In this document: positions 31,494-38,541 of the stretch, one piece after another | Numbering within the stretch: position 1 is the stretch's first letter | Layout of the letters: every line of letters begins with the position of its first letter | NCBI RefSeq assembly: GCF_902833045.1 | Contig: NZ_CADFDU010000002.1 | Coordinates: 496,001 to 560,000 of the forward strand | Length of the DNA: 64,000 bases | Direction of reading: 5' to 3' | From: Burkholderia sp. BCC0322 | GTDB taxonomy: Bacteria > Pseudomonadota > Gammaproteobacteria > Burkholderiales > Burkholderiaceae | The notes under the pieces: model-generated | The model's database searches: none | Told to the model about the DNA's origin: nothing | Seen by the model: only the letters and a program-made list of their open reading frames with translations | Translations under genes and position numbers: made by a program

Positions 31494-31931
31494 TCAGCCG
31501 TTGCGGCGCGCCTGCGTTTCGGCGGGGCGCAGCTTCGCGGCGAGCTTGTCGAGCACGCCGTTCACGTACTTGTAGCCGTCGGAGCCGCCGAACGTCTTCG
31601 CGAGTTCGACAGCTTCGTTGATAATCACGCGGTACGGCGTTTCGACGTGGTGCGTGAGCTCGAACGTCGCGATCAGCAGCACGGCGCGTTCGACCGGCGA
31701 CAACTGGTCGATCGGACGGTCGAGCGACGGCGTCAGTGCTTCGACGAGCGTGGCGTGCTCGCGGATCACGCCGTGCAGGATCGCGTCGAGCAGCTCCTTG
31801 TCAGCCTTGTCGTAACCGAGCGCGCCGCGCAGTTGCGCGTCGATCTCGCCGGAGGACGCGTTCGACAGCAGCCACTGGTACAGCCCCTGCGTCGCCAGCT
31901 CGCGCGATTGTCGGCGGGCGCTCTTCTTCAT
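31494..31931 (-). CDS. nusB: Transcription antitermination protein NusB
   Basis: A 145-residue all-helical factor that, with NusE (S10), binds boxA RNA in rRNA antitermination. The N-terminus [18 protein letters not shown] and the C-terminal [41 protein letters not shown] block are family-specific (quoted here in part). It overlaps the ribH stop by four bases (ATGA), the common ribH-nusB arrangement. Confidence 0.96.
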
Positions 31932-32446
31932 GCGCGCTCCTCTTCGTCGTCTTCGTCTTCCTCTTCGTCCTCGTCGTCGTCGCCGAGCTGGTCGAGGGCC
32001 ATCGTCAGGTTGGCCATCTCGACGGCGACGCGTGCTGCGTCACGACCCTTTTCGGTCATGCGCGCGACGGCCTGCTCGTCGTTTTCGGTCGTCAGGACCG
32101 CGTTCGCGATCGGCAGGTTGAAGTCGAGGCCGATGCGGGTGATGCCCGCGCCGCTCTCGTTCGACACGAGTTCGAAGTGGTAGGTCTCGCCGCGGATCAC
32201 CGCGCCGAGTGCGATCAGCGCGTCGAACTGGCCGCTTTCCGCGAGCTTCTGCAGCGCGAGCGGGATTTCCAGCGCGCCGGGCACCGACACGAGCAGCACG
32301 TCTTCACCGGTGACGCCGAGGCGTTCCAGTTCCTCGACGCACGCGTCGGCGAGGCCGTTGCACACCGGCTCGTTGAAGCGCGATTGCACGATGCCGATAC
32401 GCAGGCCGTCGCCTTCGAGATTCGGTTGGTATTGTCCGATTTCCAT
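31928..32446 (-). CDS. ribH: 6,7-dimethyl-8-ribityllumazine synthase
   Basis: A 172-residue lumazine synthase that condenses 5-amino-6-ribitylaminouracil with dihydroxybutanone phosphate. Motifs: [51 protein letters not shown] (substrate and catalytic His region, quoted in part) and [14 protein letters not shown]. The C-terminus adds an acidic tail with almost only Asp/Glu over about 17 residues; lumazine synthases normally end soon after the last helix. The tail is translated from a repetitive tcttcgtc-type tract. It overlaps nusB. Confidence 0.96.
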
Positions 32447-32499: not shown

Positions 32500-33642
32500 T
32501 TACGCGTGGGACGCCGGGCAGGACTTGGCTTCGGCGCCGGGCATCGGGATGAAGCCCGTGACTTCCAGGCCGTAGCCGGACATGCTGCCCAGCTTGCGCG
32601 GATTCGACAGCACCTGCATCTTGCCGACGCCGACATCGCGCAGGATCTGCGCGCCGATGCCGAACGTCTTGAAATCAACCGGCCGGCGCTTGAGCGCAGC
32701 GGCCTTTTCTTCCTCGTCGAACGCCTTGAAGACGTCGATCAGGTGTTCCTTCGTGTCGCCGCAGTTGAGCAGCACGATCACGCCGAGGTCGCGCTCCGCG
32801 ATCTCGCGCATCGCGGCGTCGAGCGTCCACGAGTGCGTCGACACGCCCGTTTCGAGCAGGTCGAGTACCGAAAGCGGCTCGTGCACGCGCACCGGCGTAT
32901 CGACGTCGGGCGACGGCGCACCGCGCACCAGCGCGATGTGCGGTGAGCCGCTCGGCTGGTCACGGTACAGCACCGCGCGGAACGTGCCGTGCGCGGTCTG
33001 CATCGTGCGCTCGGCGATCCGCTCGATGATCGATTCGGTGCGGCTGCGGTACTGGATCAGGTCGGCGATCGTGCCGATCTTCAGGTTGTGTTCCTGCGCG
33101 AACTCGATCAGGTCGGGCAGGCGCGCCATCGTGCCGTCGTCCTTGATGATCTCGCAGATCACCGCGGCCGGCGTGAGGCCCGCGAGCGCGGTGAAGTCGC
33201 AACCGGCCTCGGTGTGGCCGGCACGCACGAGCACGCCGCCCGGCTGCGCCATGATCGGGAACACGTGACCCGGCTGCACGATATGCTCGGGGCGTACGTC
33301 GTGCGCGACGGCCGTGGCGATCGTGTGTGCACGGTCGGCAGCCGAGATGCCGGTCGTCACGCCTTCTGCCGCTTCGATGCTGACCGTGAAGGCGGTGCCG
33401 TACTGCGTGCCGTTGCGGTAGGTCATCAGCGGCAGGTGCAACTGCTTGCAGCGTTCCTGCGTCAACGTCAGACAAACCAGGCCGCGGCCGTACTTGGCCA
33501 TGAAGTTGATCGCTTCCGGCGTGACGAATTCGGCGGCGATCACGAGGTCGCCCTCGTTTTCGCGGTCTTCTTCGTCGACCAGGATCACCATCCGGCCGGC
33601 TTTCAGCTCGGCGATGATGTCGAGCGTGGAGGCGAGCGTCAT
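32500..33642 (-). CDS. ribB: 3,4-dihydroxy-2-butanone-4-phosphate synthase with degenerate GCH II domain (RibBX type)
   Basis: A 380-residue protein. Residues 1-205 are the RibB domain ([33 protein letters not shown] region, [22 protein letters not shown]), which forms dihydroxybutanone phosphate from ribulose 5-phosphate. The C-terminal half aligns with GTP cyclohydrolase II, but the zinc cysteines C-x10-C-x-C are missing: the region reads [14 protein letters not shown]. The domain is therefore very probably catalytically dead, as in the RibBX class known in proteobacteria. A separate ribA is expected elsewhere. First gene of ribB-ribH-nusB. Confidence 0.93.
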
Positions 33643-34351: not shown

Positions 34352-34614
34352 GGGGACGACTCCTTGAAGAAGAGGGTGGCCGCTACGCGGCGCGCCGTGC
34401 GTTGCGGCGTTGAATCCGCTGTCGACGCATCTTAGCGCGGCGGCGTGACCCGTGCGCGTCGTTGGCCATTCGGTCAGGTGTTGGCTGAGCGAATGGCCGG
34501 TGGATCCGACACAGTCGTCCCGATTGCACCGGAATACCGCCCCTCGCAGGCATCGCGCATCCGTCCGCAAAAAGTCGTATCATGAAACACGAAACATGAA
34601 GTAATGGAGACCCC

Positions 34615-35217
34615 ATGATCGAACTCGACCGCGCCGCAGCGGCTGTCCTTGCCCGGCTGGCGTCTTTCGGCCAGGCAAACGATGCGCGGATGGACGACCG
34701 CAGCCGCAAGATGCTTAACCTCGAGCCGGCCACGGCCGAACTGCTGTACCTGCTCGTCACCGGCGCACGGCGCAGGCGCGTGCTCGAGATCGGCACGTCC
34801 AACGGCTACAGCGCGATCTGGCTCGCCCATGCGCTGCGCGAAACGGACGGGCAGCCGCTCGTCACCGTCGAGTACGCGCCCGACAAGGCCGAGCAGGCGA
34901 GGGCCAACCTGCGCGCGGCAGCGCTGCAGGATTGGGCGCAGGTGATCGAAGGCGATGCGACGCAAGTCTGCGCGGCCGTGACGGGCCCGTTCGACTGCGT
35001 GTTCTTCGATGCCGACCGCGTGAGTGCGCCGCGGCAGCTCGCGCACCTGTTGCCGAAGCTGACGGCCGACGCGCTGCTCGTCGCGGACAACGCGCTGTCC
35101 CATCCGGACGAAATCGCCGGCTATCTCGCCGCGGTCGATGCATCTCGGAAGTTCGACACGACGATCGTGCCGGTCGGCAAGGGGCTCCACATCGCGCGTC
35201 GCCGGCGGTTCGCATGA
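34615..35217 (+). CDS. SAM-dependent O-methyltransferase (catechol/caffeoyl-CoA-like)
   Basis: A 200-residue class I methyltransferase. Motif I is VLEIGTSNGYSAIWLAHA, motif II VTVEYAPDKAEQARANL, and the metal-proximal FDCVFFDADRVSAPRQL follows, as in small bacterial O-methyltransferases of the catechol/caffeoyl-CoA type. Its stop overlaps the GntR gene by four bases, so they form one unit. Substrate unknown. It is divergent from DUF1993. Confidence 0.87.
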   Translation: MIELDRAAAAVLARLASFGQANDARMDDRSRKMLNLEPATAELLYLLVTGARRRRVLEIGTSNGYSAIWLAHALRETDGQPLVTVEYAPDKAEQARANLRAAALQDWAQVIEGDATQVCAAVTGPFDCVFFDADRVSAPRQLAHLLPKLTADALLVADNALSHPDEIAGYLAAVDASRKFDTTIVPVGKGLHIARRRRFA

Positions 35218-35897
35218 CGCGGGCCATACTCGAGCGCACGACGCTGGGGCGCGACGCGTACGGGGCGATCCGCGAGATGCTGGTCGACGACGGGCGCTTC
35301 GCGGCGGGCGAGAAGATCAGCATCGAGGCGCTGTCCCGTGATCTCGGCATCAGCCGGTCGCCTGTGTGGGCAGCGGTCTCGCGCCTGGAAGCGGAGGGGC
35401 TGCTGCAGGTCGTGCCGCGGCAGGGCGTGTTCGTCATCGCATTCGACCGCGCGCGGATCGTGGCCATCTTCGAGGCGCGGGAAGCCCTCGAAGGGATGGC
35501 CGCGCGCCTGGCGGCGCAGCGCATGACGCCTGACGATCATGCGGCGCTGAATGAAGCGTTGACGCGGCAGGCGAATGCGGTCGACACGCGCGACGGCCAC
35601 GCATACCGGATCGCCAATCTCGATTTCCACCACGGGCTGCTCGCTGCTGCGCGCAACACGACGATCGAGACGTCGCTCAGGGCGCTGTATGCGCAGGTGC
35701 AGACGATGTGTTCGGGCGGCGCGAGTCCGATGGACGACTGGGCGCGACTGGGCGGGAATGTCGCCGAACACCGGCAGGTGTTCGACATGATCGCGAAGCG
35801 CGATGTGGACGGTGCCGAGCGCGCGGCACGCGAGCATGTGCGGCAGTTGCTCGGGACGATTTTGGCGCGCGCGGAAGGGGATGAGGCAGACGCGTGA
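35214..35897 (+). CDS. GntR-family regulator (FCD/FadR subfamily)
   Basis: A 227-residue regulator. The N-terminal winged helix is at residues 10-75 (EALSRDLGISRSPVWAAVSRLEAEGLLQVV in parts, PRQGVFVI wing). The C-terminal FCD all-helical effector domain has the Asp/His metal-binding pattern (ANLDFHHGLLAAARN; GGNVAEHRQVFDMI; RAAREHVRQLL). FCD regulators sense carboxylates. Translation is coupled to the methyltransferase upstream, which is its most likely target by inference. Confidence 0.9.
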   Translation: MTRAILERTTLGRDAYGAIREMLVDDGRFAAGEKISIEALSRDLGISRSPVWAAVSRLEAEGLLQVVPRQGVFVIAFDRARIVAIFEAREALEGMAARLAAQRMTPDDHAALNEALTRQANAVDTRDGHAYRIANLDFHHGLLAAARNTTIETSLRALYAQVQTMCSGGASPMDDWARLGGNVAEHRQVFDMIAKRDVDGAERAAREHVRQLLGTILARAEGDEADA

Positions 35898-35932
35898 TCG
35901 GCTGCGGGCGACGGCGCGAAGGATGGAGAAAA

Positions 35933-35961
35933 GCGGCGGCCGTCAGCATGCCGGCCGCCGC
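35933..35961 (-). terminator. Terminator originally serving the ribD-ribE transcript
   Basis: Stem GCGGCGGCCG / CGGCCGCCGC with a 9-nt loop. On the minus strand it runs into TTTTCTCC. It lies 20 bp past the stop of the ribE remnant, showing where the intact ribE gene once ended. Confidence 0.72.
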
Positions 35962-35981
35962 GTCGGAGACCGTCCGCGCGA

Positions 35982-36106
35982 TCAGTCCGGATGCATGCCC
36001 TGCGACGTCGACAGCATCCGCTCGACGTAGCGCGCAATCATGTCGACTTCGAGATTGACCTTGTCGACTCGATGCAGCCGCCGGCCGCGACAATGCCGGT
36101 AACCGT
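35982..36106 (-). pseudogene. ribE: Riboflavin synthase (ribE) remnant with large internal deletion
   Basis: Directly after the ribD stop, minus strand, the reading T-G-I-V-A-A-G-G-C-I-E-S (from 36106, after TV) matches the N-terminus of riboflavin synthase (consensus MFTGIVAAVGxIES), but the start ATG reads ACG. After 15 codons the sequence jumps, out of frame, to DKVNLEVDMIARYVERML, the riboflavin synthase C-terminal motif, ending at a TGA at 35982 (HPD*). The junction lies near GTCGAC (36063-36068). About 160 central codons of a roughly 200-codon gene are gone. The position between ribD and its terminator is where ribE stands in related genomes. This copy cannot be functional. Confidence 0.85.
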
Positions 36107-36120
36107 CGTGACGATCCCGT

Positions 36121-37242
36121 TCAGTGAGCAACGTCGGGCGGCGTGAAGCGCGCGAGGATCCGCAGATCGTCGCCGACCCGCTCGAACCCGTGGAACGACA
36201 GCCGCGTACGCGCCTCGAGGTTCGCCGGCGCGGCGAGGTCGAACATGCCGGCCGCATCGGCGCCCAGCAGGCTCGGCGCGAGGTAGACGAGCAATTCGTC
36301 GACGCACTGCTCGCGCAGCAGCGAGCCGTTCAGCTTGTGGCCGGCCTCGACGTGCAGCTCGTTGACGCCGCGCGCGCCGAGCGCCGCCAGCATCGCGGGC
36401 AGGTCGACCTTGCCTTGCGCATTCGCGATCGGCACGATTTCCGCGCCCCGCGCCTTCAGCACGTTCGCGCGCATTTCGCCGGCGGCGTCGAGCCGGCCGC
36501 AGAAGATCAGCAGCGGCGCGCCTTCGAGCAGCCGTGCGTCGAGCGGCAGGTCGAGGCGGCTGTCCACCAGGATGCGCTGCGGCTGGCGCGGCGTGTCGAT
36601 GCCGCGCACGGTCAGCAGCGGATTGTCTTCGCGAACGGTGCCGATGCCGGTCAGTATCGCGCAGGCGCGCGCACGCCACGCGTGCCCGTCGAGGCGCGCG
36701 GCCTCGCCGGTGATCCACTGGCTTTCGCCGGACGGCAGCGCGGTGCGGCCGTCGAGCGACGCAGCGGTCTTCATTCGCACCCACGGGCGGCCGCGCGTCA
36801 TCCGCGACACGAAGCCGATGTTCAGTTCGCCCGCTTCATGCGCGAGCAGCCCGCAGCGCACGTCGACGCCCGCATCGCGCAGCATGCCGAGGCCGCGCCC
36901 CGACACCTGCGGGTTCGGGTCTTCCATCGCGGCGACGACCTTCGCGACGCGCGCGTCGATCAGCGCGTTCGCGCACGGCGGCGTGCGGCCGAAATGGCTG
37001 CACGGTTCGAGCGTCACGTAGACGGTCGAGCCCGCGACGTCGTAGCCGCGCGAGCGCGCGTCCTTCAGCGCCTGCACTTCCGCGTGATCCTGGCCGGCCG
37101 GCTGCGTGAAGCCTTCGCCGATCACGTCGCCGTCCTTGACGATCACGCAACCGACACGCGGGTTCGGTGCCGTCGTATACATGCCGCGCGCGGCAAGCGC
37201 GAGCGCACGCTGCATGTGGGCGAAATCGATATCGGAAAACAT
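36121..37242 (-). CDS. ribD: Bifunctional riboflavin biosynthesis deaminase/reductase RibD
   Basis: A 373-residue bifunctional enzyme: N-terminal deaminase (residues 1-150) and C-terminal reductase acting on the pyrimidine intermediate of riboflavin synthesis. Zinc motifs HAEVQAL and PCSHFGRTPPC are intact; RVGCVIVKDGDVIGEG precedes them. The reductase half carries RPWVRMKTAASLDGRTALPSGESQWITG (in part) and ELHVEAGHKLNGSLL. It lies immediately upstream (minus strand) of the ribE remnant and 15 bp downstream of hemL. Confidence 0.96.
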   Translation of the reverse strand: MFSDIDFAHMQRALALAARGMYTTAPNPRVGCVIVKDGDVIGEGFTQPAGQDHAEVQALKDARSRGYDVAGSTVYVTLEPCSHFGRTPPCANALIDARVAKVVAAMEDPNPQVSGRGLGMLRDAGVDVRCGLLAHEAGELNIGFVSRMTRGRPWVRMKTAASLDGRTALPSGESQWITGEAARLDGHAWRARACAILTGIGTVREDNPLLTVRGIDTPRQPQRILVDSRLDLPLDARLLEGAPLLIFCGRLDAAGEMRANVLKARGAEIVPIANAQGKVDLPAMLAALGARGVNELHVEAGHKLNGSLLREQCVDELLVYLAPSLLGADAAGMFDLAAPANLEARTRLSFHGFERVGDDLRILARFTPPDVAH

Positions 37243-37257
37243 GCGCGCGGACCCGGG

Positions 37258-38541
37258 TCAGGCGGCGAGTGCCGCGAATGCGCGGCGCGCGGCCGCGAGC
37301 GTCGCGTCGATCACCGCGTCGTCGTGCGTGCTCGACACGAAGCCGGCCTCGTACGCGGACGGCGCGAAGTACACGCCTTCGTCGAGCATCAGGTGGAAGA
37401 AGCGGTTGAAGCGCTCGGTGTCGCTCTTCGTGACTTCCGCGAAGCTGGTCGGCACGCGTTCGGCGAAGTAGAGGCCGAACATCGCGCCGATCGAGTCGGC
37501 CGCGAACGGCACGCCGGCCGCGCGCGCTTCGGCGGCGAGGCCGTCGGCGAGGCGCTTGGTCTGCGCGGTGAGCGCGTCGTAGAAGCCGGGCGCCTGGATC
37601 AGTTGCAGCGTCTTCAGGCCCGCGGCGACCGCGATCGGGTTGCCAGACAGCGTGCCGGCCTGGTAGACGCCGCCGAGCGGCGCGAGGTGGGCCATGATGT
37701 CGCGGCGGCCGCCGAACGCGGCAGCCGGCATCCCGCCGCCGATCACCTTGCCGAGGCAGGTGAGGTCGGCCGTGATCCCGTAGTAAGCCTGCGCGCCGCC
37801 GAGTGCGACGCGGAACCCGCACATCACTTCGTCGAAGATCAGCACGGCGCCGTGCTTCGTGCACAACGCGCGCAGCGCGTTCAGGAATTCGGGCGTGCCG
37901 CGCACGAGGTTCATGTTGCCCGCGACCGGCTCGACGATCACGGCGGCGATCTCGTCGCCGAACGCGCCGAACGCTTCTTCGAGCGCGGCGACGTTGTTGT
38001 ATTCGAGGACGGTCGTGTGCTTCGCGATGTCGGCAGGCACGCCGGCCGACGTCGGGTTGCCGAACGTCAGCAGGCCCGAGCCGGCCTTCACGAGCAGGCT
38101 GTCCGCGTGGCCGTGGTAGCAACCTTCGAACTTGACGATGCGGCTGCGGCCCGTGAAGCCGCGCGCGAGACGCAGCGCGCTCATCGTGGCCTCGGTGCCG
38201 CTCGACACCATCCGCACCTGCTCGATCGACGGCACGAGCTTGCAGATTTCCTCGGCGATCTCGATCTCGGCTTCGGTCGGCGCGCCGAACGAGAAGCCGT
38301 CGGCGAGCACGTTCTGCACGGCCGACAGGACTTCCGGATGGACGTGGCCGACGATCATCGGGCCCCACGAGCCGATGTAGTCGATGTACTGCTTGCCGTC
38401 GGCATCCCAGAAATACGGGCCTTGCGCGCGCGCGACGAAGCGCGGCGTGCCGCCGACCGAACGGAATGCACGCACCGGCGAGTTGACGCCGCCGGGAATG
38501 GTCTTCTGGGCGCGTTCGAAGAGGATCTGATTGTTGGACAT
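37258..38541 (-). CDS. hemL: Glutamate-1-semialdehyde 2,1-aminomutase
   Basis: A 427-residue PLP/PMP enzyme that makes 5-aminolevulinate in the C5 heme pathway. Length is the family norm. Motifs: [70 protein letters not shown] (quoted in part), and [17 protein letters not shown] with the PLP lysine. I start at ATG 38541; the frame extends far upstream through antisense sequence. It runs on into ribD with a 15-bp gap. Confidence 0.97.

Follow-up and report, generated by a model that had tools for sequence, protein, structure and literature searches.

The riboflavin synthase gene that follows ribD in Burkholderia sp. BCC0322 (ribE1) has become a pseudogene by deletion and decay, in a genus where RibE1 was probably lost repeatedly, and the last step to riboflavin is most likely taken over by a second synthase, RibE2, encoded elsewhere in the genome. 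In the scenario that we favour, RibE2 would have entered this part of the genus, presumably by transfer, and its presence would have made RibE1 redundant and dispensable, so that RibE1 could then be lost more than once. The strain studied here would rely on a RibE2 of the E. coli/Vibrio type (NF009566), which we presume to be both present and active in it. The evidence comes from a stretch of 64,000 nucleotides of this strain (the window) and from 65 genomes of the genus.

What is left of ribE1 in the window is a short stub (Table 1). As the initial annotation had recognised, the N- and C-terminal ends of the gene are joined out of frame: the alignment gives a net loss of 505 bp with respect to two relatives with an intact gene (G032 and G020) and a frameshift of 1, and the change of the start codon from ATG to ACG can be read directly in the sequence. 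Regarding the junction, the initial annotation had proposed six shared letters (GTCGAC), a proposal that has to be corrected, because the flanks of the deletion in the intact relatives (ATCGAATCGA followed by TCC in G020, and GGCGACAAGG) have around 3 bp (CGA) in common instead. The stub is the remnant of the native RibE1 (NF006767/PRK09289) of the ribD-ribE order, that is, the same gene at the same place, differing in that the copy of the window is deleted and out of frame. The 14 nt between the ribD stop codon and the stub are also the spacing found before the intact ribE1 in most relatives.

Table 1. Features of the window around the ribE1 stub, with the evidence for each of them
Feature	Positions	Strand	Evidence
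Out-of-frame stub (125 nt) of the riboflavin synthase pseudogene ribE1	35982..36106	-	Sequence reading and alignment
ribE1 5' remnant, about codons 1 to 13/14; start ATG to ACG, Phe2 to Val	36069..36106	-	BLAST over codons 2-13, 82% identity, E 0.003
ribE1 3' remnant, codons 182-209 and stop	35982..36066	-	97.6% identity to G032 over 85 nt, E 1.1e-28
ribD, intact	36121..37242	-	TIGR00326, 361.8 bits (cut-off 156.35)
Hairpin then UUUUCUCC, probable terminator after the stub	35925..35961	-	Stem of 10 bp, G+C; loop of 9 nt
GntR-type regulator gene, convergent with the stub	35217..35897	+	GntR-family model matches, all below curated cut-offs
ribBA-type gene	32500..33642	-	NF010626, 641.6 bits (cut-off 513)
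ribH (lumazine synthase)	31928..32446	-	TIGR00114, 134.5 bits (cut-off 84.6)

The two remnants have diverged to different extents. Phe2, which is Val in the stub, is invariant across the 54 intact RibE1 copies. In its first 40 nt the stub has 6-8 differences with each of 15 intact copies, and these copies differ from each other by 1.97 positions on average (maximum 5), which makes the divergence of the 5' remnant 3-4 times that of the intact pairs. The 3' remnant (84 nt) shows no excess of change, with 2-19 differences to 12 intact copies whose 3'-ends differ pairwise by a mean of 9.65 over 81 nt; relaxed constraint was thus found for the 5' part alone. Given the changes in the 5' remnant, ribE1 in the window is a pseudogene in decay and not the product of an assembly error. 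Accordingly, we give next to no credence to an assembly or sequencing artefact hiding an intact ribE1. Only one assembly represents the strain, and the exact junction had no match among other genome contig records in a search from which near relatives were perhaps excluded; against an artefact stand the changed start codon and Phe2, the excess divergence of the 5' remnant and the lesions of the same gene in nine relatives.

On the minus strand the order is ribD, stub and hairpin and, past the convergent GntR-type gene and other genes, ribBA and ribH. The initial annotation had placed the stub between ribD and a terminator, and a hairpin, probably a terminator, does follow the stub: the stem-loop at 35961..35933 has a z of -2.88 and only 2 of 200 shuffled sequences fold equally well. 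A scan for consensus terminators, limited to loops of 8 nt, reported none after the stub, where the loop of the hairpin has 9 nt. The persistence of this terminator-like hairpin 3' of the stub could speak for continued expression and use of the stub, for instance in the form of a short peptide or of RNA ending the rib transcript, and a frame of 91 codons does extend into the C-terminal remnant. Such a role is hardly credible, because this frame and ribD overlap in different phases, the 5' remnant is decaying, and other relatives retain different pieces of the gene or none. The initial annotation had also considered ribD, ribB and ribH to be intact. ribD and ribH pass their NCBIfam cut-offs, and this part stands; the ribB gene is actually of the RibBA type and passes NF010626, with a RibA half (45.4 bits) far under the ribA cut-off of 205.85. 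A weak RibA half would fit a RibB fusion that has no GTP cyclohydrolase activity.

As further observations on the neighbourhood, the methyltransferase and GntR-type genes (34615-35897 of the window) are, judged by eye, apparently missing from this place in six relatives with a broken ribE1 (G001, G012, G009, G024, G064 and G065); in these, the ribE1 remnant is soon followed by the beginning of the gene that lies at 34354 in the window. The Burkholderia sRNA Bp1_738 was matched in the window. We also considered a plasmid origin of the locus and rejected it, the region 34600-37300 having no match in a plasmid collection.

The initial annotation had concluded that the cell must have another synthase elsewhere or take up riboflavin. 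This was the right reading as far as the relatives go, and for the strain itself it is an extrapolation from them. A profile search matched PF00677 in all 65 genomes, and 43 of them carry an intact RibE2, a protein of 237 aa with two lumazine-binding domains that is 34-38% identical to RibE1. RibE2 of G001, the single one tested, scored over the cut-offs of three riboflavin synthase equivalog models, the best being NF009566 (293 bits, cut-off 180), and the nearest solved structure to RibE2 is E. coli riboflavin synthase (1I8D, residues 1-201, E 9.5e-46). By this alignment and by its NF009566 score RibE2 is of the same type as the E. coli enzyme (TIGR00187, NF009566/PRK13020 type), from which it differs in a longer C-terminal tail (237 vs 213 aa) and in having Glu and Asn, in all 43 copies, where E. 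coli has Asp, at positions that we take to be 185 and 143 respectively. These substitutions count against our reading; the Asn at the second position is shared with RibE1 of G032. F2, S41, C48, T50, both His of the GGH..SGH region, K137 and S146 are invariant in the 43 copies. These include residues described as important in PMC10012899 (Phe2, Ser41, His102), with the His pair at 98 and 103 in RibE2. Furthermore, eight genomes have RibE2 as their only synthase, which suggests that RibE2 has riboflavin synthase activity.

The site of RibE2 is conserved, with an ABC transporter gene upstream in 40 of the 43 genomes and a ClC-type channel gene downstream in 42; in the one record titled complete, RibE2 is on the contig titled chromosome 2. 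Our search of the RibE2 context covered 13 of the 22 genomes without RibE2, and in 6 of these 13 the coordinates show a tight empty site, with flanks 19-142 bp apart. Regarding its origin, we found 52 RibE2 homologue loci, close relatives only, in a genome contig collection. Half of them (26) are titled Burkholderia, and the other 26, with 55-60% identity, belong mostly to Vibrio, Photobacterium, Salinivibrio and Motilimonas and include Allopusillimonas soli, Comamonas denitrificans and two metagenome-assembled genomes. This distribution suggests that RibE2 was acquired by horizontal transfer.

We considered control of RibE2 by an FMN riboswitch and rejected it: an Rfam scan of six loci, four of them with RibE2, found no FMN riboswitch before RibE2 and gave a fluoride riboswitch only. 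The latter was present in three of the six loci (L123, L129 and L131), all among the four RibE2 loci and all holding the ClC-type gene as well. Of the 10 genomes searched for FMN riboswitches, nine had a single one and G050 had two. Judged by eye, the extra riboswitch of G050 (L242), a genome without convincing trace of ribE1, precedes a gene similar to lumazine synthase. Another candidate reason for a second synthase was immunity of the type described for flavophos, a Burkholderia phosphonate with a gene cluster in which a second copy of lumazine synthase serves for immunity (PMC12871164); it was discarded because it concerns lumazine synthase and not RibE.

An intact RibE1 frame could be read in 54 of the 64 genomes examined, and RibE1 is broken in nine: G001, G009, G011, G012, G024, G028, G050, G064 and G065. 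Both copies are present in 35 genomes, RibE1 alone in 19 (21 with G022 and G026, scored as intact on both domain matches alone), RibE2 alone in 8, and neither in G011. The RibE1 locus of G026 was partly covered, the rib locus of G022 was outside the 64, and G058 showed part of ribD only. Eight of the nine genomes with a broken RibE1 have an intact RibE2. The association is weak in the strict count (RibE1 lost in 8 of 43 genomes with RibE2 vs 1 of 22 without it, p 0.15). Only by counting G011 among the RibE2 lineages does it become 9 of 44 vs 0 of 21 (p 0.026), and the species are not independent in either count.

Regarding selection, the median dN/dS in the 35 two-copy genomes was 0.159 for RibE1 and 0.145 for RibE2, with 0.113 for RibD in 34 of them. 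In the eight RibE2-only genomes it was 0.198 for RibE2 (27 pairs) and 0.123 for RibD, and in the RibE1-only genomes 0.223 for RibE1 (19 sequences) and 0.261 for RibD (16 sequences). RibE2 is thus under purifying selection, alone or beside RibE1, and RibE1 is under purifying selection in the two-copy genomes, where it is not simply useless. Since both copies are constrained where both exist, redundancy permits the loss of RibE1 without making it neutral everywhere.

The broken genes retain different parts of ribE1. The window keeps both ends, and so does G001, with a shorter 5' piece and the ATG retained. G012 keeps codons 138-167; G024, codons 3-33; G028, codons 142-202 in degenerate form; and G064 and G065, codons 1-49 and a tail that by eye resembles the last dozen codons. 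In G009 about codons 1-93 remain, less 7 bp; G011 retains almost the whole gene, interrupted by a stop at codon 57 and a deletion of 7 bp; and G050 has no convincing piece. The 3' breakpoint is common to the window and G001 within about 3 nt, and both deletions may be one event followed by a loss of 21 bp. The kept pieces alone leave the independence of the losses unproven, and the tree is more informative.

We built this tree from 17.9 kb; its 21 tips are the window plus 20 genomes from the set of 65. The window falls in a clade with (G001,G012), (G019,G002) and (G032,G020), in which G019, G002, G032 and G020 have an intact RibE1. Supports in this clade are 42-61, except for G001+G012 with 100; elsewhere, G009+G011 also has 100. 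If loss is irreversible, the best tree needs at least five losses of RibE1, whichever root is chosen, and at least four are needed in 995 of the 1000 bootstrap trees; if regain is allowed, three changes suffice on the best tree. The ribD tree parts G064 from G065 although they have one lesion in common, which indicates that recombination occurs at this locus, and it could lower the number of losses.

It is therefore conceivable, although we consider it unlikely, that most losses are not independent events: a single older inactivation would have been followed by growing deletions, and recombination would have spread broken and intact alleles. The breakpoint common to the window and G001 fits this, and so do the separation of G064 and G065 in the ribD tree, the weak nodes near the window and the three changes needed with regain. 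Moreover, codons 108-137 are missing from every broken ribE1 except that of G011, and the kept pieces of all but G011 are compatible with a shared first deletion there. Nevertheless, four intact copies stand amid the broken ones in the clade of the window, the sisters G009 and G011 have no lesion in common within the part that both retain, and five irreversible losses are counted on the best tree. Repeated loss of RibE1 is the reading that we keep.

G011 is the exception to the rule, and with it uptake or another enzyme has to be considered. In this genome of three contigs (completeness 100) the sole riboflavin synthase gene is the broken RibE1, with no RibE2 and no other PF00677 match at E<=10. 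At the empty RibE2 site, the 400 bp of G011 can be aligned over their full length with those of G063, another genome without RibE2, at 94.75% identity. The sister of G011, G009, carries RibE2. The flanks of the site are nearest to G050 and G009 (92-94%) and not to G063 (91-92%), which argues against a wide exchange; we read this as a short recombination that probably brought in the empty allele, and an exact deletion or an empty allele retained from the start are possible too. By analogy, the strain of the window might have no riboflavin synthase and import riboflavin, as G011 may do, and in Vibrio cholerae the ribC/D/E genes were dispensable on rich medium (PMC3799429). We find such auxotrophy improbable for the window, however, because intact RibE2 accompanies nearly all the broken RibE1 genes, and because ribD, ribBA and ribH of the window are open and score over their family cut-offs, which is unexpected for an old auxotroph. 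Still less probable is that some Burkholderia (G011 and possibly the strain of the window) make riboflavin without a member of the known synthase family, through an unknown last-step enzyme, or live wholly by uptake despite the kept rib genes. For the window we hold to a RibE2 encoded elsewhere.

A redundant ribE pair is already known. In Aeromonas salmonicida ribE1 and ribE2 are 33% identical, each single deletion mutant grows without riboflavin and the ribE1 mutant is attenuated in fish; Shewanella oneidensis and Pseudomonas putida are named alongside for the same pair (PMC10012899). According to that paper, an operon-linked ribE1 goes together with a separate monocistronic ribE2, around one third identical, as in Burkholderia. 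However, both copies are intact in Aeromonas, whereas several Burkholderia genomes have naturally lost the operon copy, and the Burkholderia RibE2 occupies a mostly fixed site elsewhere. New here are the several losses of the operon copy inside a single genus, and a genome that has neither copy. Our literature search (titles and abstract starts, few subscription papers) returned no description of duplication, essentiality, pseudogene or displacement of riboflavin synthase in Burkholderia. For B. cenocepacia, metabolic modelling predicts an essential RibE that would be a drug target (PMC3123600).

Actually, this would be the replacement, still under way, of an enzyme that is normally essential by one distantly related to it, with some species having the operon copy only, some both copies, some the other copy only and one neither. 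It is a caution against relying on the ribE of the rib operon in the Burkholderia group, and the natural single-copy strains are material to compare the two enzymes; in other respects this is a common case of redundant genes of which one is lost. Finally, RibE1 of G019 (L066) has an open frame with T3S, A115E and E188K at otherwise invariant sites, the most among the 54 copies, and may be in early decay and on its way out.
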